Below the pieces are notes generated by a model. That model saw only the letters and a list, made by a program, of their open reading frames with translations. It was not told where the DNA came from and searched no databases. The translations under genes and the position numbers were made by a program. Shown here in pieces: positions 1 through 13,303 of a DNA stretch of 64,000 nucleotides. Source of the stretch: Sanyastnella coralliicola (GTDB taxonomy: Bacteria; Bacteroidota; Bacteroidia; Flavobacteriales_D; Sanyastnellaceae); NCBI RefSeq assembly GCF_030845195.1, contig NZ_CP132543.1, positions 1,009,501 through 1,073,500 on the forward strand, in the 5' to 3' direction. How positions within the stretch are numbered: the stretch's first letter is position 1; each line of letters begins with the position of its first letter.

Positions 1-477
1 TTCTTCAATCGTCATGTCTAGGTAACGGCCTCCACTATACGTCGTCTCAAAATTCGTTTCATCGGTAAATGGAATGAACAAGTAATTCTTGTACTGCTCA
101 TTCTCCATGAGCTGCAGGTTCTGGTAAACTGTCAGCTTGTACCTCTTTCCGTCGATTTTGAAAGACAAGGTTCCATAAGGACGGTACTTCGGAAGGCGGT
201 CTGTCGTCGTTTTCATTTCGAAGGTCTTGCCGTTGTCAATCGGCTTGAATGTAGCTTCAACACGAAAGTCCATGTTGATTTCGTAGTAAGGAATTCCCTT
301 GAACTCTTCAATGTGATCTTCCGGTAGAATTGATGTCTCTGGGTTGCTAAAGACGTTATCAATCGAGTCACGATAAGACGTGATGGTTTTTTCGTATCCG
401 GTTTGTCCGAGGGTCGTCCCCATCGCCAGGGTACACATGGTCAATGTGAGGACTTTCAAATAGTTAACCTTTTGCAT
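1..477 (-). CDS. DUF1684 family protein (C-terminus outside window)
   Basis: This reading frame runs from an ATG at 477 to the left edge without a stop (159 codons), so the C-terminus is missing. It opens with a hydrophobic segment ending in a signal-peptidase-like site (about residues 1-25), which suggests export. The rest matches the DUF1684 pattern: a F-K-G-I-P-Y-Y segment, the basic motif TTTDRLPKYRPYG, then VYQNLQL, PFTDETN and GGRYLD near the edge. The family is common in Bacteroidota and Actinobacteria and has no firmly assigned biochemical role. A -7-like element TATCTTTA lies upstream on the same strand. It is divergent from the gene at 548. Confidence 0.8.
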   Translation of the reverse strand, partial: MQKVNYLKVLTLTMCTLAMGTTLGQTGYEKTITSYRDSIDNVFSNPETSILPEDHIEEFKGIPYYEINMDFRVEATFKPIDNGKTFEMKTTTDRLPKYRPYGTLSFKIDGKRYKLTVYQNLQLMENEQYKNYLFIPFTDETNFETTYSGGRYLDMTIEE

Positions 478-498
478 GTATTCTTCGTAAAAGACCCT

Positions 499-527
499 TA
501 AAGATACGCATGCTTTATCACATGCGT
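499..527. promoter_or_regulatory. -7 element plus inverted repeat between divergent genes
   Basis: The minus strand reads TATCTTTA at 506-499, a Bacteroidota -7 variant, 22 nt before the DUF1684 start codon. Directly beside it is an inverted repeat ACGCATG-N8-CATGCGT (506-527). An inverted repeat abutting a promoter in a 70-bp divergent spacer looks like an operator. No regulator can be assigned to it from this window. Confidence 0.4.
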
Positions 528-547
528 CTAACCGAAACTTACTTACT

Positions 548-1207
548 ATGTCACTACGGCTACTCTCATTCTTTGGAGCGTTCCTCTTTTCTGGTTCTTT
601 GTTGGCTCAAGAACAGGGCTTTGCCTATTTGAATTGGGCTGATCTTCACGCTAACGCGGGAATTAGATCCGTCACGGTGGAACAAATCTTCTATAAGAAC
701 GATGTACCTGTAGATACCTGTTTGGTAAGTCGCGCTGAATTGGATGGGGAAGGCCGTCCGGTCATCTTCGAAAACTACTTCGCTTGTGGAAGGCTATTCA
801 GTCGTGAGGAAATCACATATACTTCTGACTCTACCTTGATCACTTACGCCTGTGTACCCACGCGATGGGAAACGTCACGTTTGGAGGTAACCCAAGATGA
901 CCAAGGTCGAATAAAGACACGCACATTCAACGGAGCGCAAGCCTGGAAAGACGAATTCGTATATGCCGATGACGGCAACATGGTCAAAGCCATTCGCTAC
1001 CAAAAGCAAGGCGAAGAATGGCAACCCGTTGAAATCAAAAAGTTCCTGAACAAGCGTGAAGACATGGAGCGTAGGGCAGAGAATAATCTCACCTACATCC
1101 ACGACCAACAGGGATTACTGTTGATTCACAACGTGTATAGCAATAGTGGACAACTTACCATGGTCAGAAAGTACTCTTACGAGTTCGAACACACGGTGAG
1201 CGAGTGA
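548..1207 (+). CDS. hypothetical secreted protein
   Basis: 219 residues with a clear signal peptide (about residues 1-20, cleavage after LLAQ). The mature part is soluble and rich in charged and aromatic residues. Its short strand-turn units such as YADDGNMVKAIRYQ and RKYSYEFE resemble RHS/YD-like or toxin_15-like beta units, but there is no convincing domain match. Two cysteines (in VDTCLVS and FACGRLF) may form a disulfide. The stop codon directly abuts the stop of the convergent ettA gene, with no spacer. Function unknown; a role in the periplasm or on the cell surface is inferred only from the signal peptide. Confidence 0.75.
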   Translation: MSLRLLSFFGAFLFSGSLLAQEQGFAYLNWADLHANAGIRSVTVEQIFYKNDVPVDTCLVSRAELDGEGRPVIFENYFACGRLFSREEITYTSDSTLITYACVPTRWETSRLEVTQDDQGRIKTRTFNGAQAWKDEFVYADDGNMVKAIRYQKQGEEWQPVEIKKFLNKREDMERRAENNLTYIHDQQGLLLIHNVYSNSGQLTMVRKYSYEFEHTVSE

Positions 1208-2893
1208 TTACTTAACCAGCTTCTTGTACTTGATTCGAGTAGGGCCTTGGTCTCCTAGGCGCTTCTTGCGATTCTCTTCGTAATCAGAGTACCCTCCTTC
1301 AAAAACATATACCTGGCTATCTCCTTCGAATGCCAAGATGTGCGTGCAGATGCGGTCTAGGAACCAACGGTCGTGACTAATGACAACGGCACATCCTGCG
1401 AAGTTTTCGATTCCTTCTTCCAATGCACGCAGTGTATTCACGTCGAGGTCGTTAGTAGGCTCATCGAGAAGGAGCACGTTGGCTTCTGTCTTTAGTGTCA
1501 TGGCAAGGTGCAAACGGTTGCGTTCACCTCCTGAAAGCACACCACACTTCTTCTGTTGATCAGAACCGTTGAAGTTAAACTTCGACACGTAAGCACGGGC
1601 GTTGACAATCTGCCCTCCGATTTCAATTTGTTCGTTCCCACCAGAGATGACTTCGTAAACTGATTTCTCAGGATCGATGTCTTTGTGACGCTGGTCAACG
1701 TAACCGATCTTCACTGTTTCACCGATGGTGATGTTTCCATCATCTGGCTCTTCTTCTCCCATGATAATCTTGAAGAGGGTGGTTTTACCTGCACCGTTTG
1801 GTCCGATAATACCTACGATACCTGCAGGTGGCAGTGAAAAGCTGAGGTTTTCATAGAGGAGCTTATCTCCGTATGCCTTCGTCAGCGTTTCGGCATCAAT
1901 CACGTTGTTTCCAAGACGTGGACCATTCGGGATAGGCAGTTGCAGCTTAGCTTCTTTATCCTTCCCTTGCTGGCTCATCAACTTGTCATAGTTGTTCAGA
2001 CGTGCTTTGCTCTTCGCTTGACGTCCTTTCGGGTTCATACGCACCCAATCCAACTCTCGCTCAAGTTCTTTCTTGCGCTTAGACTCTTGCTTCTCTTCTT
2101 GGGCGAGGCGCTTCGCTTTTTGATCCAACCAAGAGCTGTAGTTTCCTTTCCATGGGATACCCTCACCACGATCAAGCTCAAGAATCCATCCAGCTACGTT
2201 GTCTAGGAAGTAACGGTCGTGTGTTACGGCGATTACGGTTCCCTTGTAACGCTGAAGGTGTTGTTCTAACCACTGCACTGATTCCGCATCAAGGTGGTTG
2301 GTAGGCTCATCAAGTAAGAGCACATCAGGTTGCTTCAACAACAAGCGACAAAGTGCTACGCGGCGACGTTCACCTCCAGAGAGTTCGCTGATCTTTTGAT
2401 CTTCTGGCGGTGTACGAAGAGCGTCCATCGCGATGGCCAACTTCGTGTCCAACTCCCATGCGTCGAGTGCGTCAATCTTGTCTTGAACCTCCGCTTGGCG
2501 ATCCATCAAGTTCTGCATCTTGTCAGGGTCGTTCAAGATCTCTTCATCCATGAATTTGTTGTTGATCTCCTCGTACTCTTTCAAGATATCTACGATCTCC
2601 TGAGTACCTTCTTCAACGACTTCACGAACGGTCTTATTCTCATCCAACTTTGGTTCCTGAGGGAGGTAACCAACAGTATATCCATCAGACCAAACAACAT
2701 CTCCTTGGTAAGCTTCGTCAAGTCCTGCGATAATCTTCATCACCGTTGACTTACCGGAACCATTGGCACCGATGATACCAATCTTCGCACCGTAGAAGAA
2801 GGAGAGGTAAATGTCTTTTAGAATGTGTTTTCCTTGAGGAGTGGTCTTATTGATTTTGACCATGGAAAAGATGACCTTCTGATCGTCTGACAT
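1208..2893 (-). CDS. ettA: ABC-F translation factor EttA
   Basis: 561 residues, the usual EttA length. There are two ABC ATPase domains in one chain and no membrane segments. Domain 1 has Walker A GANGSGKST (about 42-50), signature LSGGERRRVAL and Walker B LLLDEPTNHLD. Domain 2 has GPNGAGKTT, LSGGERNRLHL and LLLDEPTNDLD. The insert between them (KRKKELERELDWVRMNPKGRQAK) is the family P-site tRNA-interaction linker, and the RMNPKGRQAKSKAR stretch is typical of EttA. In E. coli, EttA binds the ribosomal E site and gates the first translocation step according to the ATP/ADP ratio. It appears monocistronic, with a -7 element TATCTTCG 20 nt before the ATG. Confidence 0.95.
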   Translation of the reverse strand: MSDDQKVIFSMVKINKTTPQGKHILKDIYLSFFYGAKIGIIGANGSGKSTVMKIIAGLDEAYQGDVVWSDGYTVGYLPQEPKLDENKTVREVVEEGTQEIVDILKEYEEINNKFMDEEILNDPDKMQNLMDRQAEVQDKIDALDAWELDTKLAIAMDALRTPPEDQKISELSGGERRRVALCRLLLKQPDVLLLDEPTNHLDAESVQWLEQHLQRYKGTVIAVTHDRYFLDNVAGWILELDRGEGIPWKGNYSSWLDQKAKRLAQEEKQESKRKKELERELDWVRMNPKGRQAKSKARLNNYDKLMSQQGKDKEAKLQLPIPNGPRLGNNVIDAETLTKAYGDKLLYENLSFSLPPAGIVGIIGPNGAGKTTLFKIIMGEEEPDDGNITIGETVKIGYVDQRHKDIDPEKSVYEVISGGNEQIEIGGQIVNARAYVSKFNFNGSDQQKKCGVLSGGERNRLHLAMTLKTEANVLLLDEPTNDLDVNTLRALEEGIENFAGCAVVISHDRWFLDRICTHILAFEGDSQVYVFEGGYSDYEENRKKRLGDQGPTRIKYKKLVK

Positions 2894-2912
2894 AGCATTT
2901 TGGGTTGGGTGG

Positions 2913-2920
2913 CGAAGATA
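2913..2920 (-). promoter_or_regulatory. -7 promoter element of ettA
   Basis: TATCTTCG on the minus strand, a one-base variant of the Bacteroidota TAnnTTTG element, 19 nt before the ettA ATG at 2893. No clear -33 TTTG was seen. Confidence 0.45.
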
Positions 2921-2949
2921 GGGAAAATGATCTTCGGGATGTCTTGAGA

Positions 2950-3075
2950 GGAACGCGGATTGCGGAACGCGGAACGCGGAAAACAGATTGCGGATCGAGG
3001 AACGCGGTAATTGGTGTAAGGTTTTTAGTTCTTAGTGATTGGTTATCGTTTATCGTTTATCGATTATCGATTCTT
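2950..3075. repeat. degenerate 7-bp tandem repeat array A
   Basis: Eighteen consecutive heptads can be read without losing phase. Copies of GGAACGC and GGATTGC (2950-3005) drift to GGTAATT and GGTTTTT, then AGTTCTT, then GTTTATC (3048-3061), GATTATC and GATTCTT. Nearly every heptad begins with G or A. The same order of heptad types occurs in the array at 7171-7352. It lies between the divergent genes ettA and 3155 and probably does not encode protein. It resembles the degenerate heptanucleotide (STRR) repeats known from cyanobacteria. Confidence 0.8.
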
Positions 3076-3154
3076 TGTCCCCCTGAACGATTCCTTTTTT
3101 CAAGTGTACAGCAGATAACACGGGCGCTTTTGCCTCTTTGTTTACCGTCTGCCT

Positions 3155-4114
3155 ATGAAATCTTTCATGCTTGTTATCGGCTTTGTATTGACCTTTCTTG
3201 GTGCTTCTGCTCAAGGGTCCATCTTTTACCCATATGATTCTATTCCGAAGGAATTGCCGAATGTCATTTACTATGAATTTATCCATGGCGTTCAGTTGAT
3301 TGAAGTTGATCATTTGGGTGCGTATTGGCATGGGGTGCATATGGCGGATATGGCTTATCCCAGAGCCTTGTCTGCTGCCGTTGATGTGCCCAAACCAGTG
3401 TCGAATGAATACTATGTACGTGATACTCTAGGGCACATTACTAAAAGCTACAGTAGTCATCATAGCCTAGCTTATTTGGATTCACTTTTTGCTGAGATAC
3501 CGATTGATATTGACACAACTCCGATCAATGAGAAGACCTATTTCTCTATTTCAAACAAGTTCGGTGGAATTGACCGGGTAGATTTCTACGGAGATTGGCG
3601 AAATGAAGACCTCGCCTACGGATTAATTAATGGGAGGGGAGAACAGGTTCTTCCTACAGAATATCAACTCATACAAATAACCAATGGCGGGTTCAATCTT
3701 ATGAAAGATGGCCAGTGGGGCTTGATGAGTCAAGACTTCAAGATGCTTACGGAATTCAAATACGACATGATCACCACCTATCCATTTGAGAACGCTTCGA
3801 TATCTGAGATTACCTATTTCAAGAAAGGGAATAAATATAGTGCGTTTCGTGTGGAGGGAAGAGATGAGGTCATTGAAGTTCCTTTCTATGAAGATTTGAA
3901 TACCAGTGTTCTCTTCATAGAACATGAGTATTTGCTCTTTTCATCAAACAGACAAAGAGGACTTATCGATTTTGAAGGGGAAGTCATCTTACCTGCAGAA
4001 TACGATTACATCTTCTTCACGAACAATACAAATTGCACCGATATGCCATGTCTTAAGCTTGTGAAAGGTGCACAAGAGGAATTCCTCCAACCAGAAGTCC
4101 TACGAAGGCCGTAG
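3155..4114 (+). CDS. secreted WG-repeat protein
   Basis: 319 residues with a signal peptide (residues 1-20, ending ASAQ). The C-terminal half has WG/KWG-type beta-propeller repeats, recognisable as GLINGRGEQVLPTEY, WGLMSQDFKMLTEFKYD and GLIDFEGEVILPAEYDYI, about 60 residues apart. The N-terminal half (residues 25-150) has no recognised domain. WG repeats form propeller-like beta units of unknown ligand specificity and are frequent in exported Bacteroidota proteins. Transcription ends at the hairpin 4169-4192, shared with the convergent gene at 4213. Confidence 0.75.
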   Translation: MKSFMLVIGFVLTFLGASAQGSIFYPYDSIPKELPNVIYYEFIHGVQLIEVDHLGAYWHGVHMADMAYPRALSAAVDVPKPVSNEYYVRDTLGHITKSYSSHHSLAYLDSLFAEIPIDIDTTPINEKTYFSISNKFGGIDRVDFYGDWRNEDLAYGLINGRGEQVLPTEYQLIQITNGGFNLMKDGQWGLMSQDFKMLTEFKYDMITTYPFENASISEITYFKKGNKYSAFRVEGRDEVIEVPFYEDLNTSVLFIEHEYLLFSSNRQRGLIDFEGEVILPAEYDYIFFTNNTNCTDMPCLKLVKGAQEEFLQPEVLRRP

Positions 4115-4117
4115 ACC

Positions 4118-4165
4118 GTATGCTGTATACAGTAGGCAGCATACTGCATACCGCATACAGCCTAC
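4118..4165. repeat. 7-bp repeat array with internal dyad symmetry
   Basis: Seven heptads in phase: GTATGCT, GTATACA, GTAGGCA, GCATACT, GCATACC, GCATACA and GCCTAC. The first units are approximate reverse complements of the later ones (GTATGC against GCATAC), so the stretch can also fold on itself. It lies in the 3' spacer of the WG-repeat gene, just before the terminator. Confidence 0.6.
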
Positions 4166-4168
4166 AAA

Positions 4169-4192
4169 AAAGCCCCGCGATTGCGGGGCTTT
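4169..4192. terminator. bidirectional rho-independent terminator
   Basis: Perfect 10-bp stem AAAGCCCCGC / GCGGGGCTTT with a GATT loop, A-rich on one side and T-rich on the other. It serves the convergent genes at 3155 (+) and 4213 (-). Confidence 0.85.
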
Positions 4193-4212
4193 CATATCCT
4201 TGGAAGTAATCC

Positions 4213-4935
4213 TTATTGGATCACTAGTCGCTTGCGTAGTGTTCCTACTTCGATGAAGTAGATTCCGCTTGTTAGAGCTGAAGTATCTACTGTCAATAGA
4301 GAAGTAGTTGTGTTCTCACGAGCCATTACCTTTCCAGTAAGGTCGTAGATCGTGTATGAACCTCCATTTTGTGATTCGAAGTCGATGGTCACTTGAGTTG
4401 TTGCTGGGTTAGGGAACACATTGAAAGAAGATGTTGCCAATTCAGCTACTGATACTATCTGGAATTGCTCGTCGCAATCACCAAATAGAACGTCCATGTA
4501 AACTTCGTTTGAAGGGTCAGAGATGTCGTAGTAGTATAGTCTCCAAGCTGATCCCTCACCTGAGTAGGTGTCATCAACTGCTGACCACGTACCATCGTTC
4601 ACCCAAAGGTGAGCTGTAAGGTCTGTTGTAGATTCTCCAGGACCAATTTGTACTAGAGCACCACCGGCTTCAATAGCAGTGTCTACATCGTAAGGACCGT
4701 GACATAGCAAACCGAAACAAAATTGAACTCCTGTTCCATCATCAGCATGGCAACGACGTTCCAAACGAACTGCCAAACTAACCGCTTCAGTGCCATTGTT
4801 CGTCAGTGTCACTTCACCGTAATCGAACCCACCATCCACAGAAAAATCAAAGAAGTCTTCAGAGAGCTGTAGGCTCTGGCCGTAAGACAATACGCCAACA
4901 CAAAGGGCGAAAAAAGTAAGGTACACGTGTTTCAT
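4213..4935 (-). CDS. T9SS-sorted secreted protein, paralogue of 5063
   Basis: 240 residues with a signal peptide (1-20, LSYGQ). The central region (25-165) looks like an immunoglobulin-like beta-sandwich with the cysteine pattern RRC-x(9-12)-FCFGLLC and a later FGDC. The last 75 residues are a type A Por/T9SS sorting tail: FNVFPNPATTQVTI, YTIYDLTGKV, GIYFIEVG and KRLVIQ. T9SS exports such proteins across the outer membrane and usually anchors them to the surface. The same layout, including the cysteines, recurs in the next gene, so the two are tandem duplicates. The target of the sandwich domain is unknown. Confidence 0.85.
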   Translation of the reverse strand: MKHVYLTFFALCVGVLSYGQSLQLSEDFFDFSVDGGFDYGEVTLTNNGTEAVSLAVRLERRCHADDGTGVQFCFGLLCHGPYDVDTAIEAGGALVQIGPGESTTDLTAHLWVNDGTWSAVDDTYSGEGSAWRLYYYDISDPSNEVYMDVLFGDCDEQFQIVSVAELATSSFNVFPNPATTQVTIDFESQNGGSYTIYDLTGKVMARENTTTSLLTVDTSALTSGIYFIEVGTLRKRLVIQ

Positions 4936-4951
4936 AAATGCAAGTTTGACT

Positions 4952-4959
4952 TAAAGATA
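4952..4959 (-). promoter_or_regulatory. -7 promoter element of the T9SS gene at 4213
   Basis: TATCTTTA on the minus strand, 16 nt before the ATG at 4935. The last base departs from the TAnnTTTG consensus, as it does ahead of the DUF1684 gene. Confidence 0.35.
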
Positions 4960-5062
4960 CACAGAAGCTACTTCCATAGGAAGTTAAACTACTTTAATCT
5001 TTGGATTCCATTCTGGGCTCAATTCGGCCCGAAAAGACGTCAAACTGAAGAAACAGCGGAGC

Positions 5063-5749
5063 TTAGCGAATCACTAATCTTTTACGGATACCATCTACCT
5101 CGATAAAGTAAAGTCCTGAAAGCAGATGACTCGTTTCAACCGTAATTCGAGATGAAGAGGTGTTCTCTGCGGCCACTACCTTTCCTGTAAGGTCGTAGAT
5201 CTTGTACGATGCTTGATTGGTTGTTTCAAAGTCAATCGTGATCATGTTATCTGCTGGGTTCGGGAAGAACTTAAAAGACGTCTGCTGGAACTCTTCTACT
5301 GAAACCACCACGAATTCCTCAGAACAATCACCGAAAATGACATCGACATAAGCTTGGTCTGCTGGGTTGTCAGCGTTGTAGTACACCATTCTCCAAGCTG
5401 AACCTTCACCAGCGTAATCAGCTAAGTGGATAGCAATTTCATTGGTAGTGCCTCCTGGCTCTAGTTCGAAATGAAAGTTTGATGGAGCTTCTGTATTCGC
5501 CTGAATGCCTGGCAAACATGTACCTGGGAAACACCAATCCACGCTTGACTGATCAAAAGCATAGCAACGCACTTGAATTTGCGGAACTACGGTGATCGTC
5601 TCTGAAGACACGTTTGTCAATGTGATCTGCTCATATTCTACACCGGCATCTGGTGCAACTTCAACAAGCGACTCAGTAACTTCGAGGCTTTGGGCGATAG
5701 CGCCCATCGAGAAGATAATTGCGAGGGTTGAGAGTAGAAGGTGTTTCAT
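5063..5749 (-). CDS. T9SS-sorted secreted protein, paralogue of 4213
   Basis: 228 residues with a signal peptide ending GAIAQ. It shares with its downstream neighbour the segment order VRCYAF...WCFPGTC, the GEGSAWRMVYY strand and the FGDCSEEF motif. It ends in a type A T9SS tail (FKFFPNPADNMITIDF, YKIYDLTGKV, GLYFIEVDG, KRLVIR). The 127-bp spacer to 4213 has its own -7-like element, so each copy may have its own promoter. The tails are more alike than the N-terminal thirds, consistent with divergence of the exposed domain after duplication. Confidence 0.85.
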   Translation of the reverse strand: MKHLLLSTLAIIFSMGAIAQSLEVTESLVEVAPDAGVEYEQITLTNVSSETITVVPQIQVRCYAFDQSSVDWCFPGTCLPGIQANTEAPSNFHFELEPGGTTNEIAIHLADYAGEGSAWRMVYYNADNPADQAYVDVIFGDCSEEFVVVSVEEFQQTSFKFFPNPADNMITIDFETTNQASYKIYDLTGKVVAAENTSSSRITVETSHLLSGLYFIEVDGIRKRLVIR

Positions 5750-5822
5750 GTCTTAGCGTTTACCCGAATATACCAAATCACACGCAAAGCAGACCTTCCT
5801 TTTCGCTTACAATCTTGTAGTA

Positions 5823-7091
5823 CTAAGCTGATTGCAACTCCAAAAGCGTAATCTCTGGCCACATTCCAACACGGCCAGGGAAGCCAAGAAATCCAAAGCC
5901 ACGGTTCACGTGCAAATGCTGTTCACCTTCGGTGTATAATCCACCCCAACGCTTGTACCGCAAGCGTGCAGGGGAGAACTTCAATCCAATCGATGGGATT
6001 TCGATTCCCATCTGCATCCCGTGGGTATGTCCGCTCAAGGTGAGTTGAATCTCTTCTTTACCATTGACTTGCTCTTCCCAGTGGGTAGGGTCATGCGACA
6101 TCAAAATTCGTGAAGGAACATCTTCAGTGCCTACCATTGCCTTCGCAAGGTCACCTTGTTGCTTGAATCCTTTCCCCCAGTTCTCGACTCCTATAAGTGC
6201 TACTTTCTCACCTTTCACATTGAGGATGCGGTTCTCATTCAAAAGAAGATCAAAGCCCATCTCTTGATGGATTTCAGGTAAGCGTGTCCGACTAAACAAC
6301 ACCTGTTCCTCAGTCAGGTTACCGTAATCCGCGTAATCGTGGTTTCCTAGAATAGAATACTTACCGTACTTCGCCTTCAATTCTTTGAATACCGGAATCC
6401 ATGGCTCGGCTTCAGAGCTTTCAATGTTGACCAAATCACCTGTGAACAAGATAAGGTCAGGGTTCAGGTCGTTGATCATTTTGATCCCCTTACGCACGTC
6501 TTCGAATTGCTCAAAGAAGCTTCCCAAGTGGGCATCACTGATCTGAACCACTTTCATACCGTCAAAGGCCGATGGTAAGTTCTTCATTGCCACCTTATGG
6601 TCAAGCACACGGAAAGCAAAGCGTCCTTTCGTTACCCCATAAAGGAAACTCACGAAGGTGAGACCTGCAGTCACTTGCCCGATACGTGTCAAGAAGGTCG
6701 CACGAGAAATACCTTTCCCTTCTAATCCTTCGCCACTAGATCCACTAAATGCCTTGACTCCCCATTGCACGAGGTATCGCAAATCATCAATCAAATGGAA
6801 AGCCCCCAAAATTACTTTCGGAGCCCAAAGCACCATAAATGCGGCCATCGCAAACATCAACCATTGTGGATGTTCCGTTCTCCATGCCCTGAAATTCAGC
6901 ATGGCCATGATCGTCAAAGCGAAAGTGAATACGGTAATGATCCAGTAAATCCAGTAAAACACCGTGCGCCAAATAGACGTCCAGTCCTTCAAGCTGACAT
7001 GTATCCCCTTAAATCCGTAGATCTCGACCAATACGAGAACCGCGATGAATATGATAAATCCCAAAATTGCTCCTATTACGTTGCCTCTCAT
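5823..7091 (-). CDS. membrane-anchored metallophosphoesterase
   Basis: 422 residues. The N-terminal third carries about four membrane segments (residues 4-25, 46-65, 77-100 and about 135-150). The remainder is a calcineurin-like phosphoesterase with metal-binding motifs SDAHLGS (185-191), FTGDLVN (216-222), GNHDY (249-253) and SGHTHG near residue 350. The arrangement matches YaeI/YkuE-like phosphodiesterases, which have been linked to envelope phospholipid or lipid A precursor hydrolysis; the substrate here is not evident. I chose the ATG at 7091; an in-frame TTG lies four codons upstream. The spacer to dgkA at 7368 contains a heptad repeat array. Confidence 0.88.
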   Translation of the reverse strand: MRGNVIGAILGFIIFIAVLVLVEIYGFKGIHVSLKDWTSIWRTVFYWIYWIITVFTFALTIMAMLNFRAWRTEHPQWLMFAMAAFMVLWAPKVILGAFHLIDDLRYLVQWGVKAFSGSSGEGLEGKGISRATFLTRIGQVTAGLTFVSFLYGVTKGRFAFRVLDHKVAMKNLPSAFDGMKVVQISDAHLGSFFEQFEDVRKGIKMINDLNPDLILFTGDLVNIESSEAEPWIPVFKELKAKYGKYSILGNHDYADYGNLTEEQVLFSRTRLPEIHQEMGFDLLLNENRILNVKGEKVALIGVENWGKGFKQQGDLAKAMVGTEDVPSRILMSHDPTHWEEQVNGKEEIQLTLSGHTHGMQMGIEIPSIGLKFSPARLRYKRWGGLYTEGEQHLHVNRGFGFLGFPGRVGMWPEITLLELQSA

Positions 7092-7170
7092 TGCAACTTG
7101 CAAAGTTAGATTTCAAACTGATAGTCAAGCGAGTTGTTCACAAAGATTGTGGAATGCCTTCTGCGAAGGA

Positions 7171-7352
7171 GGCTTATGGCTTATGGCCTAAGGCTTATGG
7201 ATCTTTTACCGTGGAATGTGGAATGTGGAATGTGGAACGCGGAACGCGGATTGCGGTTATTGGTCTTTGGTTATTAGTTGTTGGTCTTTGGTTCCTAGTT
7301 ATCGTTTATAGATTATCGTTTATCGATTCTAGACCCTCGTCTCTCGTCTAGT
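7171..7352. repeat. degenerate 7-bp tandem repeat array B
   Basis: Twenty-six heptads in unbroken phase. GGCTTAT (7171-7198) passes to GGAATGT three times (7213-7233), GGAACGC twice, GGATTGC, GGTTATT and GGTCTTT, AGTTATC, GTTTATC, GATTATC, GATTCTA, GACCCTC and GTCTCTC. From GGAACGC onward it follows the same sequence of heptad types as the array at 2950. It fills the spacer between the divergent genes 5823 and dgkA and ends just before a TACCTTTA element (7357-7364) ahead of dgkA. Confidence 0.8.
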
Positions 7353-7367
7353 TCGTACCTTTATATC

Positions 7368-7739
7368 ATGTCCAACAAAAAATTTAGTTTGCGTGATCGT
7401 CTGAAGAGCTTTTCTCATGCTTTTCGCGGGATCAACAGTGCATTGCTGTCTGAACATAATATGTGGATACACATGATTGCGGCAGTGGTGGTGATTTTCC
7501 TTGGACTGTTCTTTAACGTTACCAAGACGGAATGGCTGATTTTGTTGCTGTGTATTGGAGTGGTGCTGGCGGCGGAGCTATTTAATACAGCCATAGAAGA
7601 GTTAGCGAATGCCATTACGCAAGAACAGAACGAGAGGATAGGTAGGGCGAAGGATGTTGCGGCTGGTGCAGTACTGGTTGTGGCGATCACAGCAGCTGTT
7701 GTTGGGGTTTTGGTATTGCTGCCTTACTTCATGAAGTAG
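7368..7739 (+). CDS. dgkA: diacylglycerol kinase / undecaprenol kinase
   Basis: 123 residues, standard for the small membrane kinase family. Three membrane helices (about 33-50, 56-76 and 98-120) follow a short amphipathic N-terminus (RLKSFSHAFRGI). The family signature AELFNTAIEELANAIT with the following KDVAAGAVLV carries the conserved Glu, Asn and Asp residues of the active site. The enzyme phosphorylates diacylglycerol in Gram-negatives or undecaprenol in relatives, feeding phospholipid or cell-wall carrier recycling. The lipid substrate cannot be settled from sequence alone. Its stop abuts the stop of the convergent ABC operon. Confidence 0.93.
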   Translation: MSNKKFSLRDRLKSFSHAFRGINSALLSEHNMWIHMIAAVVVIFLGLFFNVTKTEWLILLLCIGVVLAAELFNTAIEELANAITQEQNERIGRAKDVAAGAVLVVAITAAVVGVLVLLPYFMK

Positions 7740-8396
7740 TTACCAATCTGGCGTGTCTTTGCGCTCACTCACTTTACCTTGCTCGAACAACCAAATACGA
7801 TCGGCTCCCTTTTCGCGCAACATGGCGATGTCGTGGGTGGCTACAATGATGAGCTTATTTTTTGAACGCAGATCGCTCACCAATTCCCACCACTCTTTGC
7901 GACTTGGGTAATCAAGGAATGCTGTTGGCTCGTCCATCAGGATGATCGGAGTATCCTGCATGAGGGCGCGGGCAATCATTGTCTTTTGTTGTTCGCCGTC
8001 TGAGATTTCATCAACCCGTTGTGTCGCCACTTTCTCTAGTCTAAAGGTCGATAGAAGAGAGACGACCTTTTCGTGATTGGGCTCAATCTTTTCTGGGTAG
8101 GCACCAAGTGCTATGACTTCTTGAACGGTGAGGCCGGTCCATTCAGGGGCACTGGTTTGTACGATGGAAATGAACTGGGCTCTCTGTTTCGCGTTGATGC
8201 GGAGGATGTCGTCTTTGTTCCAAGTTATTTTTCCGCTAACCGCGGGAATTAAACCACCTACTGTCTTGAGGAAGGTACTTTTTCCAGTACCGTTTCGACC
8301 GATTACCGCCACGATTTCGCCAGCCTCGGCCTCGAGATCAATCTGATCAATTAGGGCTTTCTTGTATCCGATATGTAGCGCTTGAACTTCGAGCAT
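7740..8396 (-). CDS. ABC transporter ATPase, cobalamin/siderophore import type
   Basis: 218 residues, a short FecE/BtuD-type ATPase. Walker A GRNGTGKST (about 33-41), Q-loop in SIVQTSAPEW, signature as the divergent ISDGEQQKTMIARAL (ISDGE instead of LSGGQ), Walker B IILMDEPTAFLD, and the switch histidine in VATHD. It is the last gene of a three-gene operon with permease 8396 and binding lipoprotein 9378. Its ATG overlaps the permease stop by one base. It would power uptake of a corrinoid or ferric siderophore delivered to the periplasm. Confidence 0.9.
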   Translation of the reverse strand: MLEVQALHIGYKKALIDQIDLEAEAGEIVAVIGRNGTGKSTFLKTVGGLIPAVSGKITWNKDDILRINAKQRAQFISIVQTSAPEWTGLTVQEVIALGAYPEKIEPNHEKVVSLLSTFRLEKVATQRVDEISDGEQQKTMIARALMQDTPIILMDEPTAFLDYPSRKEWWELVSDLRSKNKLIIVATHDIAMLREKGADRIWLFEQGKVSERKDTPDW

Positions 8397-9391
8397 CAGA
8401 AAACTCTCCTTCCTTTAAGAATGATCGCAATAACAACTGGGGCTCCCATGAATGAAGTCACGGCGTTTAACGGCAAGGCTCCTTCTGCTCCTGGCAGTCG
8501 GGCAATGAGGTCGCATCCTAGGCCTATGATCATTCCTGATATGGCTACCGCCGGAATCAAAACTGCGTGTTTTCCAGATTTCCAGAATCCTCTCGCTAAG
8601 TGCGGAACGGCCAAGCCGATAAACGCGATAGGTCCACAGTAAGCTGTAACGATACTGGTGATGATTCCAGTCAAAAGCAACACACCAATCCTGAACTGAC
8701 GGTGGTTGAGTCCCATTGATCTAGCGTATGATTCTCCGAGTGACCACAAATCTAATTTCCGCGCTAGCGAAAAAGCCCAGAAGAACCCAGCAATAACAAC
8801 AACGGACAGCACGCTTATTTCGCTCCACTTCATATCTGAGAAGGAGCCCATGCCCCAAAAGACAAACGAGCGCAATGCCTCTTTGCTACTGCCGAATTGA
8901 AGTAGGATGACAGCTGCAGAAACCATGTAGCCTACCATGAGGCCAAAGATCAAAAGGGTCACCGGTCGTTGCACTCGAAGTGCAAATAGCAGAATGATCA
9001 AAAGGATGACCATAGAACCGAAGAAGGCACCTAGGACAATCCCAATGGCTGCTAAAGCGCCACCAGTGAGTAGTACGACAAGTGCCACTCCCAAGCTTGC
9101 TCCAGAAGTGATCCCAAGTACTGAAGGACCGGCCAAGGGGTTCTGAAAGAAGCGTTGCATGAGCAGTCCGCAGATGGCTAAACCACTTCCTGCAAGTGAT
9201 GCCGTAATAGCTCTGGGTAGTCTGCTTTCGACAACGATAAGGCGGGTAGTTTCAGAGACTTTTTGACCGAACAACGCTGAAATCACCTCACCTAGAGGTA
9301 AGCGCACAGAGCCGAACATCACTTCTAATAAGAAGAAGGTGATGGCGAGTAAAATGGGAAAGAGCCATTTGAGAGCTTTACTCAAGTTCAA
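8396..9391 (-). CDS. FecCD/BtuC-type ABC permease
   Basis: 331 residues, typical for the family, with about ten hydrophobic segments. Family landmarks are RLPRAITASLAGSGLAICGLLMQ near residue 60 (only part of it is the consensus RLPR-GAxL-xGxxLQ), GPSVLGITSGASLGVALV, and CGPIAFIGLAVPHLAR near residue 255, the coupling-helix region that contacts the ATPase. The only start that keeps the first helix is a TTG at 9391, overlapping the upstream lipoprotein gene by 14 bp, which suggests translational coupling. A copy of the 15-bp iterated motif lies within it at 8757. Confidence 0.92.
   Translation of the reverse strand: MNLSKALKWLFPILLAITFFLLEVMFGSVRLPLGEVISALFGQKVSETTRLIVVESRLPRAITASLAGSGLAICGLLMQRFFQNPLAGPSVLGITSGASLGVALVVLLTGGALAAIGIVLGAFFGSMVILLIILLFALRVQRPVTLLIFGLMVGYMVSAAVILLQFGSSKEALRSFVFWGMGSFSDMKWSEISVLSVVVIAGFFWAFSLARKLDLWSLGESYARSMGLNHRQFRIGVLLLTGIITSIVTAYCGPIAFIGLAVPHLARGFWKSGKHAVLIPAVAISGMIIGLGCDLIARLPGAEGALPLNAVTSFMGAPVVIAIILKGRRVF
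8757..8771 (+). repeat. iterated motif TTCCGCGNTAGCGAA, copy 1
   Basis: Perfect 15/15 copy with N = C. It lies in the permease gene, antisense to this orientation, and is read there as S-L-A-R. Confidence 0.8.
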
Positions 9392-10499
9392 CAGGTTGGA
9401 AGTACCGCGCGGTGTGCTGCGGCTTCAATTCAGGATGCAAGATAGCAATGAGGTCTTGTAGAATGGCCTGGGGCTCAACAATCGCATCTCCGAAGTAATC
9501 CGTTTTGGCCGCGTTGCAGTAGAAAACTTGTCCTTTTTCGAACACGGGTAATGACGCATATCGGGGGTCATCTTCTCGAATAGACTCGAGGGTAATGCCT
9601 TCTTCACGGTAAGACACTTTGCCCCAATAATCAGCCAGCATCGCTCGTTCCAGCAACACTTCGAAATCAAGTTTCAGATTCGTTCGTTCTTGGTGGTCAC
9701 TGAATAAGTACGAACCACCGGCATCATGAATGAACTGCGCAATGAAACTTTGTCCGGAAGGAGCAAACCAAACCCCACCGTCGTTCGAGCCAGTAAACAC
9801 AGATGGTCGATTCTGGACATTTGCAGCCAGTTCTTTCGCTGCGTTGTAGCTTGCTTCTATTTCAGCAAAAGCGGCATTGGCTTGTTCTTCTTGACCAATC
9901 AACCAGCCAGCTGCTTTGATCCATTCCGCGCGACCTAAAGGATGAATTTCTAGGTATTCTGAGAAAGGAACGACTACGATACCCAATTCTTCGAATTGTT
10001 CGTACCCTTCTCCACCGTAAGGGTAAGTAATGAGCACATCAGGCGAGAGGTCTACCATTTGCTCAAAATCAATGTTCTTTTCTCCAGAAATGTCACGCAT
10101 GCGTCCATCTTCAAGCCGCGCGTTGACTTCTTGATTCTTCACCCAGCTGGCATAAGCCGTTCCCAACACTTGATCAAGTTGCTGCAGTTTCCAGAAGTAG
10201 GCTAGATGGGTTGTTGATAGAGTAGTAATGGTTGCGCTATCGCGGAATAGGTAGTGATCAACCTCGAGCAAGGTGTCAGGTGGAGTACCCTTGCACACAC
10301 GACAAGAAAGTGAGGTCTCTTCTCCTTCAAGCGTATAAGTCTCAAGACAAGACATGCCGTGAAAATCAACAATAGCAAATCCTTCGGCATAGGAAGTCTC
10401 GGTAAAAGAAACCGGCTCTGGCTGCTCAGGTTGACTTGGTGTTTCGGCGCATCCGATGAGCAACAAAACACAAAACGAAAAGAGAAGAGTTCTTAACAT
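9378..10499 (-). CDS. periplasmic-binding lipoprotein, cobalamin/siderophore ABC importer
   Basis: 373 residues from the ATG at 10499. A lipoprotein signal (LLFSFCVLLLIGC, lipobox LLIGC) precedes a class III (BtuF/FhuD-like) periplasmic binding domain with segments TTHLAYFWKLQQLDQVLG, FEQMVDLSPDVLITYPYG and ELGIVVVPFSEYLEIHPLGRAEWI. The long helix linking the two lobes (AEIEASYNAAKELAANV) is typical of the family. It leads the operon with 8396 and 7740. The promoter element TACATTTG ends only 4 nt before the ATG, so the mRNA may be leaderless. The ligand (B12 or a siderophore) cannot be decided. No TonB-dependent receptor gene is adjacent. Confidence 0.9.
   Translation of the reverse strand: MLRTLLFSFCVLLLIGCAETPSQPEQPEPVSFTETSYAEGFAIVDFHGMSCLETYTLEGEETSLSCRVCKGTPPDTLLEVDHYLFRDSATITTLSTTHLAYFWKLQQLDQVLGTAYASWVKNQEVNARLEDGRMRDISGEKNIDFEQMVDLSPDVLITYPYGGEGYEQFEELGIVVVPFSEYLEIHPLGRAEWIKAAGWLIGQEEQANAAFAEIEASYNAAKELAANVQNRPSVFTGSNDGGVWFAPSGQSFIAQFIHDAGGSYLFSDHQERTNLKLDFEVLLERAMLADYWGKVSYREEGITLESIREDDPRYASLPVFEKGQVFYCNAAKTDYFGDAIVEPQAILQDLIAILHPELKPQHTARYFQPVELE
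10233..10247 (-). repeat. iterated motif, copy 2
   Basis: 14/15 match with N = A, inside the binding-lipoprotein gene at 9378, where it is read as F-R-D-S-A. Confidence 0.75.
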
Positions 10500-10503
10500 G
10501 CCG

Positions 10504-10511
10504 CAAATGTA
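10504..10511 (-). promoter_or_regulatory. -7 promoter element of the ABC importer operon
   Basis: TACATTTG on the minus strand, an exact TAnnTTTG match, with 4 nt between it and the ATG at 10499. That geometry implies a leaderless or nearly leaderless transcript. Confidence 0.6.
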
Positions 10512-10545
10512 GGATATGTGGCTCGTCCAGTTGTACATTGACGCC

Positions 10546-10776
10546 ATGGATCCAAAGCAGAAACAGAAAGTCTATCGCAAGACCATCATCCCGATGGTCA
10601 TTGGAGTTTTCATGATTATTCCCGCATTGATAGCTGAAGACGCTTTCACATTCTTCATATTAGCATGGTTCGGAGGGTTCTTAGTCTTGTCTAGAGCCAT
10701 CACTCTTTACAAGTTTCAAGCTTATCTAAAAGCTCAAGAATCTGAACCAGACGTCTTAGACAATATTGATGAGTAA
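10546..10776 (+). CDS. small two-helix membrane protein
   Basis: 76 residues starting MDPKQKQK at the ATG at 10546; an upstream in-frame ATG at 10516 would add 10 residues that do not look like a leader. A basic N-terminus is followed by two hydrophobic segments (about 16-32 and 36-55) and an acidic tail (SEPDVLDNIDE). The basic/hydrophobic/acidic layout predicts an inner-membrane hairpin. No family recognised. It lies between the ABC operon (divergent) and the K+ channel (convergent). Confidence 0.6.
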   Translation: MDPKQKQKVYRKTIIPMVIGVFMIIPALIAEDAFTFFILAWFGGFLVLSRAITLYKFQAYLKAQESEPDVLDNIDE

Positions 10777-10795
10777 AGAGATTCTACTCTCATTC

Positions 10796-11542
10796 TCATT
10801 CTGATTCTCCTTCTTCCTTTAAATGTTCCTCCTGCTCCAGCATCCGCGCCTTAGACAAGGCGGAGGCTAAGAGTCCGGCGGGAACGGTCACGATCCCTAG
10901 ACCCATCAAGAGGATGAAAAATGTAAAGACCTTTCCACCAGTAGTGATGGGGTAAACATCTCCATACCCAACGGTAGTTAAGGTGATGACAGACCACCAT
11001 AGGCTGTGAAAGACAGAGGCAAAAGCCTCCGGTTGCGCTTCTTTTTCGAAGTAGTAAATACCAGAAGCTGAAAGAAAAATCATAATGCAAGTCACAACCA
11101 AGAATAGCACAGTCTCTTCTCGAACAATGGTATAGGCAATATGGAATCGGCGGAGGGCTCTGTTGTAGCGAACCAACTTCAACGCCCGGAAGATGCGGAT
11201 GACACGGAAAGCTCTGAGCGCGCGCAGGTCAACTACCATACGCAAGTAGAAAGGCAGAATGGCCAAGAGGTCAATGATTCCGTAAAAGCTAAAGATGTAC
11301 TTGAGCGGATTCTTCGCTACGAAGATGCGAAGAGCGTATTCTATGGTGAAGACCACAACACAGAACAACTCAATCAGTTCCAGTCGCTCTTCATTTTCTG
11401 GGGAGAGGTCTGGGAGTGTCTCTAAAGCAAAAGCAATTAGCGAAACGAAGATCAGGATCTGAATGATCCAGTCGAAGATCTTACCGTAGCGTGAAGTATT
11501 GTCTTCAACGATAGGACGAAGTCGCAGTTTGAGGCTGTTCAT
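10796..11542 (-). CDS. voltage-gated potassium channel
   Basis: 248 residues from the ATG at 11542 (a longer frame begins upstream but has no leader). Six-helix Kv-type layout: S1 near residues 20-42, S2/S3 to about 105, and an S4 with arginines at every third position (RALRAFRVIRIFRALKLVR). S5 follows, then a pore loop with the K+ selectivity filter TTVGYGDVYP, and S6 (FTFFILLMGLGIVTVPAGLL). The acidic C-terminal tail has no RCK domain. Such channels set membrane potential in the inner membrane. A TATCTTTG element lies 7 nt before the start. Confidence 0.93.
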   Translation of the reverse strand: MNSLKLRLRPIVEDNTSRYGKIFDWIIQILIFVSLIAFALETLPDLSPENEERLELIELFCVVVFTIEYALRIFVAKNPLKYIFSFYGIIDLLAILPFYLRMVVDLRALRAFRVIRIFRALKLVRYNRALRRFHIAYTIVREETVLFLVVTCIMIFLSASGIYYFEKEAQPEAFASVFHSLWWSVITLTTVGYGDVYPITTGGKVFTFFILLMGLGIVTVPAGLLASALSKARMLEQEEHLKEEGESE

Positions 11543-11549
11543 AGGCGAA

Positions 11550-11557
11550 CAAAGATA
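11550..11557 (-). promoter_or_regulatory. -7 promoter element of the K+ channel gene
   Basis: TATCTTTG on the minus strand, an exact consensus match, 7 nt before the ATG at 11542. Confidence 0.6.
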
Positions 11558-11600
11558 ACCGTTCGGTGGTTGAGCACTATATACCAGCAAAGGTGGACTT

Positions 11601-11635
11601 GATTCTCAATTCTCGCTTATTGATTCTCGATTCGG
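11601..11635. repeat. short 7-bp repeat array upstream of the carboxylase gene
   Basis: Five heptads in phase: GATTCTC, AATTCTC, GCTTATT, GATTCTC and GATTCGG. They match the last heptad types of the arrays at 2950 and 7171. The -7 element TACCTTTG begins one base later. Confidence 0.55.
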
Positions 11636-11636
11636 T

Positions 11637-11644
11637 TACCTTTG
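11637..11644 (+). promoter_or_regulatory. -7 promoter element of the acyl-CoA carboxylase gene
   Basis: TACCTTTG, an exact TAnnTTTG match, 15 nt before the ATG at 11660 and directly after a heptad array. Confidence 0.6.
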
Positions 11645-11659
11645 CGACAAAGCTTATAC

Positions 11660-13303
11660 ATGAAGATCAAGGAAGACCTCACATTCAATAAGAACGACGA
11701 TCAAATGCGCATGCTTCTTTCTGATTTGCGCCGTAAACTCACTGCTGTATACAAAGGTGGTGGGGAAAAGAAGATCGCCAAGCAACACGCCAAGGGTAAA
11801 ATGACTGCGCGTGAACGTGTTGACTACTTATTGGATGATGATCAACCTCGTATCGAAATTGGTGCATTGGCTGCTGAAGGCATGTATCAAGAACACGGTG
11901 GTTGTCCGAGCGCAGGAGTGGTTGTTGAGATTGGATACGTGCGAGGAAGGCAAGTGATGGTTGTGGCGAATGATGCCACCGTAAAGGCTGGAGCTTGGTT
12001 CCCAATGACTGGAAAGAAGAACTTACGCGCTCAGGAAATCGCCATCGAGAATCGCATACCGATCATCTACCTCGTAGATAGTGCAGGAGTGTTCTTGCCA
12101 ATGCAAGACGAAATCTTCCCTGATAAAGAGCATTTCGGACGCATCTTCCGTAACAACGCGGTGATGTCTTCAATGGGGATTCCTCAAATTTCAGCGATCA
12201 TGGGTTCATGTGTTGCTGGAGGGGCTTACCTACCGATTATGAGCGACGAAGCGCTCATCGTCAATAAAACAGGGACTATCTTCTTAGCCGGTTCATACCT
12301 CGTGAAGGCCGCTATTGGCGAAGACATCGACAATGAAACGCTTGGTGGTGCAACGACTCACAATGAGATTTCAGGAGTAACAGACTACAAAGCAGAAGAC
12401 GATAAGGATGCGTTAGACACGATCAAAGATCTTATTGATAAGATCGGACGTGTCAATCAAGATGCCGGATTCAGTCGTATTGAGGCGATTGAGCCGAAAG
12501 TAGACCCGAAGAAGGTCTATGGAATTCTTCCGGCTGAACGCAGCAAGCCTTACGATACAAAGCAACTAATTCGTTGTATCGTAGATGATTCAAAATTCAC
12601 AGAGTACAAGGCAGGGATCGGTAAAACCATTGTTTGTGCTTACGCACGCATTGATGGATGGAGTGTAGGTATTGTTGCCAACCAGCGCGAGCTTGTACAA
12701 TCGAAAACACAAGGGATGCAGTTTGGAGGAGTGATCTACAGCGATAGTGCTGATAAGGCTGCTCGATTCATTATGAACTGTAACCAGAAGAACATCCCAT
12801 TGGTGTTCTTGCAAGATGTGACAGGCTTCATGGTAGGCTCTCGCTCAGAGCATGGAGGTATCATCAAAGATGGTGCGAAAATGGTGAACGCTATGGCCAA
12901 TAGCACCGTACCTAAGTTTACCGTGGTTGTCGGAAATAGCTATGGAGCAGGAAACTACGCGATGTGTGGGAAGGCTTATGACCCACGCTTAATTGTTGCA
13001 TGGCCAACAGCACAAATCGCGGTGATGGGAGGTGCTCAAGCAGCGAAGGTGTTGCTTCAGATCGAAATGGCTTCCATGAAAGCGAAAGGAGAAGAAATCT
13101 CAGAAGAAAAAGAAAAAGAGCTCTTTGACAAGATCAAAGGTCGCTATGATGAGCAGACATCTCCTTACTATGCTGCAAGTCGCCTTTGGGTTGATGCCAT
13201 CATTGATCCGGCAGATACGAGAAAGGTGATTTCCATGGGAATTGAGGCGGCTTCAGGGGCTCCAGCAGAAAAGCCGTACAATGTAGGTGTTCTCCAAACC
13301 TGA
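11660..13303 (+). CDS. acyl-CoA carboxylase carboxyltransferase (beta) subunit
   Basis: 547 residues from the ATG at 11660; an upstream TTG would add six residues. The N-terminus KGKMTARERVDYLLD is the typical biotin-dependent carboxyltransferase opening. Two crotonase-fold halves follow. The first has the oxyanion-forming GSCVAGGAYLPIMSDEAL, the second DVTGFMVGS, VVGNSYGAGNYAMCGKAY and VMGGAQAAKVL. It transfers carboxyl from carboxybiotin to an acyl-CoA. Bacteroidota proteins of this kind are annotated as propionyl- or methylcrotonyl-CoA carboxylase beta; the acyl chain is not evident here. The biotin carboxylase/carrier partner is not in the window. Confidence 0.92.
   Translation: MKIKEDLTFNKNDDQMRMLLSDLRRKLTAVYKGGGEKKIAKQHAKGKMTARERVDYLLDDDQPRIEIGALAAEGMYQEHGGCPSAGVVVEIGYVRGRQVMVVANDATVKAGAWFPMTGKKNLRAQEIAIENRIPIIYLVDSAGVFLPMQDEIFPDKEHFGRIFRNNAVMSSMGIPQISAIMGSCVAGGAYLPIMSDEALIVNKTGTIFLAGSYLVKAAIGEDIDNETLGGATTHNEISGVTDYKAEDDKDALDTIKDLIDKIGRVNQDAGFSRIEAIEPKVDPKKVYGILPAERSKPYDTKQLIRCIVDDSKFTEYKAGIGKTIVCAYARIDGWSVGIVANQRELVQSKTQGMQFGGVIYSDSADKAARFIMNCNQKNIPLVFLQDVTGFMVGSRSEHGGIIKDGAKMVNAMANSTVPKFTVVVGNSYGAGNYAMCGKAYDPRLIVAWPTAQIAVMGGAQAAKVLLQIEMASMKAKGEEISEEKEKELFDKIKGRYDEQTSPYYAASRLWVDAIIDPADTRKVISMGIEAASGAPAEKPYNVGVLQT

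Follow-up and report, generated by a model that had tools for sequence, protein, structure and literature searches.

Degenerate heptanucleotide repeats are known from heterocystous cyanobacteria, where they are termed short tandemly repeated repetitive (STRR) sequences. Here such repeats are compared with the heptad arrays of Sanyastnella coralliicola, starting from a 64,000-nucleotide stretch of its genome (the window; positions 1009501-1073500 of the single contig of 4,097,636 bp) in which two divergent spacers, at 2948-3074 (array 1, + strand) and 7171-7349 (array 2, + strand), are built of 7-bp units. These spacers are two among very many heptad arrays of the genome. In Nostoc, degenerate heptanucleotide repeats that form hairpins occur in P6b of the trnL intron (PMC3488679). 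The cyanobacterial repeats share with the present arrays the degenerate heptads and the change of copy number by whole repeats and, with a third array of the window (array 3), the presence of a word together with its reverse complement. They belong to another phylum, however, and composite order, abutment on stop codons and a bias toward TAG are not mentioned in the available part of that source. A preliminary description of the window, made from its letters, had named STRR as the established parallel. This is fair as a likeness, but the heptamers of Beggiatoaceae and Bacteroidetes are a nearer precedent (PMC4679880). The arrays work like STRR but are not members of that group, as the best-matching named loci for the phosphoesterase encoded in the window belong to two Flavobacteriales metagenome genomes (97% and 73% identity).

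According to the available text of PMC4679880, the heptamers of Beggiatoaceae, Cyanobacteria and five Bacteroidetes (TAACTGA and others) are, as here, 7-bp direct repeats that are mostly intergenic. Some "larger assemblages of heptamer repeats" are described there in Bacteroidetes; some repeats overlap stop codons, relatives have shorter, repeat-free spacers, and contigs end in repeats (PMC4679880). The TAACTGA system uses one invariant word, which in the Guaymas filament lies mostly just upstream of start codons (same source), whereas the present genome has about ten degenerate word families, ordered composites and arrays that often lie at stop codons. No two tandem copies of TAACTGA were found on either strand in 517 kb of the genome, and a single copy lies in an array of one sampled stretch (L021).

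Omega of plasmid pSM19035 binds parS/operator arrays (PMC9499535). It is a ribbon-helix-helix protein that reads one fixed heptad word. Its arrays resemble the present ones as contiguous 7-bp units that could serve as a protein platform, but here the words are not fixed, either along an array or from species to species. In Xanthomonas and Nostoc, GGGNATC heptads are likewise over-represented in non-coding DNA and vary in length and sequence at the same sites in related species (PMC4692102), and heptad repeats are known in Geobacter (PMC2700814). A 2007 survey, as cited in PMC4679880 and PMC4692102, found seven to be the commonest unit of long simple sequence repeats in most prokaryote genomes; slippage was proposed as the cause, with a polymerase touching about 7 nt. 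The arrays described here differ from such repeats in being degenerate, composite and concentrated in some genomes. Degenerate heptanucleotide repeats as a kind, and heptamers overlapping stop codons, are therefore already known. In the titles and abstracts covered, mostly outside subscription journals, neither stop-codon abutment with a TAG bias nor ordered heptad composites were found. Within that literature, and as far as found, three features are new: the ordered composites, the close abutment on stops with its excess of TAG, and a word list that changes within a genus while the step stays the same.

The seven-base step and the order of words

The preliminary description had read positions 2950-3075 as 18 heptads and positions 7171-7352 as 26 heptads without a slip of phase, and this reading was borne out. 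Identity at a lag of 7 is 0.69 in array 1 and 0.68 in array 2, compared to 0.26 and 0.28 on average over 10,000 mononucleotide shuffles (standard deviations 0.04 and 0.03; maxima 0.454 and 0.394). Lags 14, 21 and 28 are raised as well, and identity at every other lag between 2 and 30 stays within 0.18-0.31. Some heptads, GGATCTT TTACCGT (7199-7212) and GGAAAAC (2978), fit poorly while keeping the phase. The words of array 1 run from GGAACGC/GGATTGC through GGTAATT/AGTTCTT to GTTTATC/GATTATC; those of array 2 run from GGCTTAT through GGAATGT/GGAACGC, GGTTATT/GGTCTTT and GTTTATC/GATTATC to GACCCTC/GTCTCTC. Both arrays hold the types GGAAYGC, RGTYNTT and RDTTATC in this order and in the same orientation, as had been proposed, and a further type, GACYCTC, is found in array 2 and not in array 1. 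Array 3 (4103-4166, + strand) is of another word type (GCATACC), with GTATGCN units first and the reverse-complementary GCATACN after them. It had been overlooked, as had the genome-wide scale.

The main sample of 464 kb comprised 20 evenly spaced 20-kb stretches (sampled stretches carry labels of the form L0xx) and the window. Arrays were detected by a log-odds scan at a given lag, in which a segment was kept at a score of 16 or more. The 7-bp autocorrelation proved to be widespread. Lag 7 gave 53 segments, compared to 1, 1, 0, 0 and 0 at lags 8, 9, 10, 11 and 13 and to 5 and 7 at lags 6 and 12; lag 14, the double of seven, gave 42. Five first-order Markov copies of the sample yielded no lag-7 segment. 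The even 400 kb hold 50 arrays, which extrapolates to about 500 per genome. Since 51 of the 53 arrays lie outside called genes, a coding use was dropped. The arrays are degenerate heptanucleotide tandem repeats by their 7-bp units above chance, their mainly non-coding location and their whole-unit copy-number variation. A role of three heptads (21 bp, two helical turns) in DNA shape had also been raised and is not supported: lags 10 and 11 are at background (0.23-0.27), lag 21 is not above lag 14, and helical phasing was rejected because these lags add no signal to that of the multiples of 7. Of the 53 arrays, 52 contain one or more of ten word families and 33 contain at least two, a coverage that describes rather than tests, since the families were drawn up from the arrays themselves.

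Word order was analyzed in 88 arrays, of which 50 came from the 53 sample arrays and 38 from stretches picked for similarity to array 2; any neighbor that began no more than 60 bp from an array already counted was left out. Two or more of four modules, M1-M4, are held by 32 of these arrays (22 of them from the stretches chosen by similarity), and 58 of their 60 pairwise orders follow M1, M2, M3, M4. Outside the window the even sample offers 8 arrays with 10 such orders, and every one of these conforms; two of the 8 arrays have words fitting both the M2 and the M4 patterns. Alignment of heptad order in 756 pairs, formed from the 40 arrays that measure at least 84 bp, reached a score of at least 40 in 123 pairs, compared to 26 with one member reversed. 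The heptad order therefore recurs elsewhere in the genome, and neither this comparison nor that of the 7-bp autocorrelation refuted the preliminary description. For array 2 there are at least 50 matches in its own genome, itself included (40 of 223 candidates scored); counts from such match searches in this genome are lower bounds because 40 candidates were scored.

The view that arrays 1 and 2 are copies of one composite element is upheld for the order of types, but no flank is general to the arrays, and this composite is one among several. Another recurrent composite runs GTTCGTG, ATTATTC, CCACNGT, and the modules occur together in many different subsets. When arrays were masked in 240 spacers, no border common to arrays at large was found. 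A palindromic flank of the type TTTCGTTGCGCYTTGCGC follows five arrays that each consist of four GTGGACY units; these arrays, with this flank or a near form of it, lie at L011:8568, 10828, 13598 and 18690 and at L035:1098, and some share further sequence beyond the palindrome. This subfamily is a candidate for a mobile or copied unit. Two composite-bearing spacers, in L026 and L042, have 157 bp of non-heptad DNA in common at 91% identity, and in one convergent spacer (L047:2330-3140) a unit of about 300 bp stands three times, each with a nearly identical composite array. Very regular runs also occur, such as eight copies of CCGTCCA and nine of GTATGCG. In L014:52-566 a higher-order repeat was noted, in which a unit of 13-15 heptads (91-105 bp) is present five times.

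Neither replication nor transcription appears to set the orientation of the arrays. Match lists had hinted that composites follow the leading strand. In the even sample plus the window, however, which strand is richer in G is not linked to the replichore (G exceeds C in 24 of 53 arrays; p 0.78). Co-directional composites run with the gene in 9 instances and against it in 6, and an orientation of the Beggiatoaceae type was thus not found.

Gene ends, the sister species and other genomes

Of the 34 convergent spacers 13 hold an array, as do 16 of the 166 co-directional and 7 of the 58 divergent ones; 222 of the 258 spacers have none. The enrichment in convergent spacers (13/34 vs 23/224 for other spacers, p 1e-4) narrows the earlier label of divergent-promoter spacers, which is correct for arrays 1 and 2 but not typical of the sample. 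The stop-side edge of an array lies at a median of 2 nt from the stop codon, with 23 of 42 edges within 10 nt. The start-side edge lies at a median of 88 nt, with 1-2 of 30 within 10 nt, so the start-codon proximity seen in Beggiatoaceae was not found. Gene starts came from a simple caller, and because it put one start too late (that of the kinase downstream of array 2, at 7473 and not 7368) the distances on the start side were also taken from the most upstream possible start, which gave a median of 72 nt. In 6 of the 13 array-bearing convergent spacers the array extends from stop to stop with a residual of 5 bp or less. Random placement of each array within its own spacer, where at least 30 bp were to spare, gave a null mean of 3.7 stop-side edges within 10 nt, compared to 11 of 24 observed, a value reached in 0 of 5000 trials. 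The same placement test gave 17 of 27 (null 3.8; reached in 0 of 5000) in the sister species (G001, about 90% DNA identity) and 5 of 15 (null 0.7) in a third congener (G002). For position, placement, TAG and stop phase, the sets from these two genomes are partly orthologues of array-rich stretches, and their densities are biased accordingly.

The seven-base phase was also followed across the stop codon, with arrays defined solely from the sequence downstream of it. Period-7 identity is 0.43 at the stop codon, 0.56 at +1 to +4, 0.34 at -10 to -4 and 0.22 at -17 to -11, compared to 0.29, 0.27, 0.28 and 0.25 at the same positions of other genes. In the sister species and the third congener the phase begins just past the stop (0.49 vs 0.26 and 0.38 vs 0.30). 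TAG is used at 16 of 27 array-abutting stops, compared to 61 of 350 other genes (p 5e-6), and in the sister species at 11 of 21 compared to 60 of 236 (p 0.019). The protein ends at the same position in the sister species for 11 of 12 array-abutting genes and 60 of 64 others, and in the third congener for 3 of 3 and 16 of 20. In the single array-abutting exception the sister frame is 7 codons longer. Apart from this exception the C-termini are unchanged and the genes are therefore neither cut short nor run on, and the idea that arrays overwrite coding ends was rejected.

Spacer lengths were compared with the sister species in six stretches, leaving out spacers of less than 30 bp, those split over contigs and those differing by more than 400 bp. 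Length differs in 17 of 17 array spacers, in 7 of them by multiples of 7 (chance 1/7, p 0.006), and in 6 of 27 array-free spacers, where no difference is a multiple of 7. All 12 aligned spacers hold an array in the sister species too, although one of these (L021:6830) is anchored by short matches alone and is perhaps a paralogue. Of the 24 gaps in these alignments, 12 are multiples of 7 (7, 14, 21, 35 or 49 bp). At the site of array 1 the sister has a 79-bp array of about 11 heptads in a spacer 49 bp shorter, and at the site of array 3 it is 14 bp shorter and the stop codon is TAA. Two sister contigs end inside array 2. Of 12 array-abutting orthologues, 5 have different stop codons in the two sisters, compared to 7 of 64 others (p 0.018). 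Words are replaced at two gene ends, wholly at L014:10946 and in part at L011:14941, and about three units are left in the sister of the L009 array at 10755-10910. In L009:7328-8488, compared to the sister locus (L214), a 924-bp gene (7544-8467) lies between two arrays and is absent from the sister; one of these arrays is largely the reverse complement of the other.

In sister contigs C12, C14, C29, C59 and others, array matches come to lie no more than about 170 bases from a contig end, and in another genome of the order (G013) arrays reach the contig end in L183 and L208. Arrays may break draft assemblies and be under-counted there.

Samples of 200 kb from the sister species and the third congener, chosen by position (for the sister from the longer contigs present in match lists), gave 12 and 18 lag-7 segments. 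In the sister, lags 6 and 12 gave 3 and 2 segments and lags 5, 8-11 and 13 none. The words of the third congener, whose phosphoesterase has 73% identity, are mostly others (GATCCCC, GGTGGAT, GCGGTCT), and in some of its stretches (e.g. L168:14349-14422) GGTGGAT, GATCGGG and GCGGTCT form both perfect and degenerate arrays. Across the order, 40 stretches from 30 other genomes, mostly the first 20 kb of a contig, gave 13 segments at lag 7, 8 at lag 6, 5 at lag 12 and 0-2 at each of lags 5, 8, 9, 10, 11 and 13. Twelve of the 13 lie in three genomes (G013, G039 and G050), and in G013 two arrays repeat one order of that genome's own words. At 79 Bacteroidota phosphoesterase loci, one of them that of the third congener, 7 segments were found at lag 7, 4 at lag 6, 3 at lag 8 and 4 at lag 12. 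The composite at 7213-7352 was found in 4 of 60 genomes including its own and the sister's, the other two having one weak match each. Two other composites occur in at least 6 and at least 7 of 345 genomes of the class or phylum, the own genome counted in each; two candidates were scored per genome, which makes these counts lower bounds.

Similar words (AGACGGT, GTGGACT, CTCTCGT, and GTTCGTA/CTACGCA as inverted halves) are present in arrays of other Bacteroidota families (L228-L232, L221 and L222), which were found by searching with those words, so that a selection effect in the search is possible. The recurrence of words across families (GTGGACT, GGTTCGT-like, CTCTCGT) may reflect chance or some rule.

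Explanations for the arrays

The arrays are probably, though by no wide measure of confidence, self-renewing degenerate 7-bp minisatellites that are extended by slippage, copied between sites and trimmed by selection at gene edges. The constant appears to be the step and not the word. Replication slippage in 7-nt steps would add and remove heptads, and point changes with local duplication would let the words drift along an array, as the gradient of words suggests. Recombination or template switching may carry copies of array pieces into other arrays or spacers and would in this way spread the word list and the composite order of the genome; the replaced words and the shared order point to this. 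Both slippage and copying are proposed from comparison of sequences. Ordinary deletions would remove non-functional spacer DNA, of which array DNA alone would regrow, until the array fills the space up to the last protected base, with the stop codon on one side and the promoter on the other. TAG would be favored because the third base of the stop can serve as the first G of an array. This model of deletion and regrowth predicts the observed edge distances, a TAG excess with G-initial words and unchanged C-termini. As part of the same explanation, and with the same guarded preference, the arrays look more like filler, in need of no dedicated function, than like a control element.

Several results weigh against this explanation. 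In the third congener the median stop-side distance is 67 nt, the stop codon is out of phase (0.28 vs 0.28) and TAG is not favored (1 of 6 array-abutting genes vs 30 of 182), and segments also turn up there at lags 8 (12), 9 (4) and 10 (3). In the sister species the stop codon is barely in phase (0.32 vs 0.27). Half of the 24 gaps are not multiples of 7, some of these at alignment ends. Aligned array columns differ by 12.2%, four-fold sites by 24.6% and other intergenic DNA by 9.8%; divergence of the arrays would thus lie below free drift, which speaks for some constraint or homogenization unless tandem alignment flatters identity. Plain slippage accounts neither for seven alone nor for the shared composite order at many sites, and the non-heptad flank of the GTGGACY subfamily speaks for the copying of larger pieces.

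The low divergence would be expected if the arrays were functional elements at 3' ends or in spacers, such as insulators, terminators or RNA-stability elements, kept for their period and not their letters; a variant would be a platform for an oligomeric protein each subunit of which spans 7 bp. Substitutions fewer than at four-fold sites, the enrichment in convergent spacers, the position directly after stop codons and the convergent spacers that are array from stop to stop all agree with such a function. Folding gives a divided answer. Compared to dinucleotide shuffles, the mean z over 74 strands is -0.95, with 16 strands below -2 and none above 2, but compared to shuffles of heptad order 6 of 74 strands fall below -2, and arrays 1 and 2 lie at z -1.0 to 0.4 in both tests. 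In the case of array 3, the minus strand folds at -34.5 kcal/mol (z -5.3 with dinucleotide and -0.8 with heptad-order shuffles) and the plus strand gives z -2.0 and 0.2. RNA hairpins were rejected as a general principle, as arrays 1 and 2 fold like shuffles while array 3 and some others fold better. An ordinary terminator, a hairpin with a T-run, already stands beside three arrays (window 4170, L009 8560 and L009 10915), most spacers manage without an array, and congeners use different words, as the sisters do at two sites. A dedicated function is accordingly judged unlikely. The arrays might also be mobile composite elements, that is, non-autonomous insertion units copied whole into spacers and later worn down. 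Module order that recurs at many sites, the 157 bp common to two spacers, the threefold 300-bp unit and the array-gene-array stretch of L009 that is absent from the sister would all be expected of such units, and the genome has one weak match to a Y1 transposase (G000:C1:260062). Because the GTGGACY subfamily shares its TTTCGTTGCGCYTTGCGC flank, this possibility gains weight and the minisatellite explanation loses some. It remains an improbable account, given that the masked spacers have no border general to arrays, that both sisters hold an array in the 12 aligned spacers, with the reservation on L021:6830 given above, and that the modules combine in many subsets.

Two further possibilities were weighed. 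The arrays might be G-quadruplex repeats like the GGGNATC heptads, and two-tier motifs are indeed present in 42 of 53 arrays, compared to a mean of 18.8 and a largest value of 25 in 50 mononucleotide shuffles. Three-tier motifs, found in 10 of 23 arrays of the third congener, are present in none of the 53 arrays of this genome, however, and GATTATC and ATTATTC have no GG on either strand, which makes a quadruplex role very doubtful. A dedicated enzyme or template, telomerase-like or other, that writes 7-nt units would suit the persistence of seven while the words change, as well as the very regular runs of CCGTCCA and GTATGCG. Ordinary slippage at tandem repeats yields regular runs as well, and lag 8 is also raised in the third congener; we consider such an enzyme highly improbable.

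A broader and more speculative proposal, which we hold to be rather unlikely, is that seven is a physical constant of active copying, in which 7-nt units are written by a polymerase-linked or enzyme-driven process and copied in order between spacers in some Bacteroidota. If this were true, the words would be free and the step fixed, and spacer DNA would be continually overwritten up to the stop codon. The arrays would then represent a steady state between deletion and 7-bp regrowth, in which the stop codon itself (TAG) is reshaped. If arrays do overwrite spacer DNA, this would explain a bias in stop-codon choice and would serve as a warning to annotators and assemblers, since contigs of relatives end in or near arrays. 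With some 500 arrays extrapolated for one genome, a sister species with same-site arrays of changed length and a congener with mostly other words, the genus makes the question of why the step is seven open to experiment.

Neighboring genes and minor observations

Array 1 lies between two genes. Its edges are 54 bp from the start of a gene on the minus strand (1208-2893) for an ATPase with PF00005 twice and PF12848, from which domains an ABC-F type was inferred, and 80 bp from the ATG at 3155 of a gene for a WG-repeat protein (3155-4114, + strand; PF14903). The latter gene stands between arrays 1 and 3, and array 3 starts inside its last codons, with the TAG stop codon within the array. The GC hairpin with a T-run after array 3 resembles an intrinsic terminator. 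Array 2 is flanked by a gene for a calcineurin-like phosphoesterase on the minus strand (5823-7103; PF00149), whose start is uncertain (7091 or 7103), and by a gene for a prokaryotic diacylglycerol kinase (7368-7739, + strand; PF01219 over residues 17-117), with the array ending 18 bp upstream of the ATG at 7368. A short degenerate stretch of GATTCTC at 11601-11633 (+ strand; Tandem Repeats Finder score 38, below the scan threshold) sits in the divergent spacer ahead of the open reading frame at 11642. No Rfam match at the gathering score was found in window positions 1-12000.

A small open reading frame at window 10516-10776 is missing from the sister species (L143), and a TCTCAT-rich repeat (10780-10814) adjoins the junction. 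Dispersed intergenic families resembling repetitive extragenic palindromic (REP) elements, with palindromic units around GTCCGCCTAAGGCGGAT and GGGGCACGCATGCGTGCCCC, were seen at L012:17934-18118, L021:4759-5151, L024:16089-16416 and L009:7251-7543 and in L043 and L041. Long tandem repeats of 75 bp and 345 bp are present in the window at 38500-40060 and 45760-47418.

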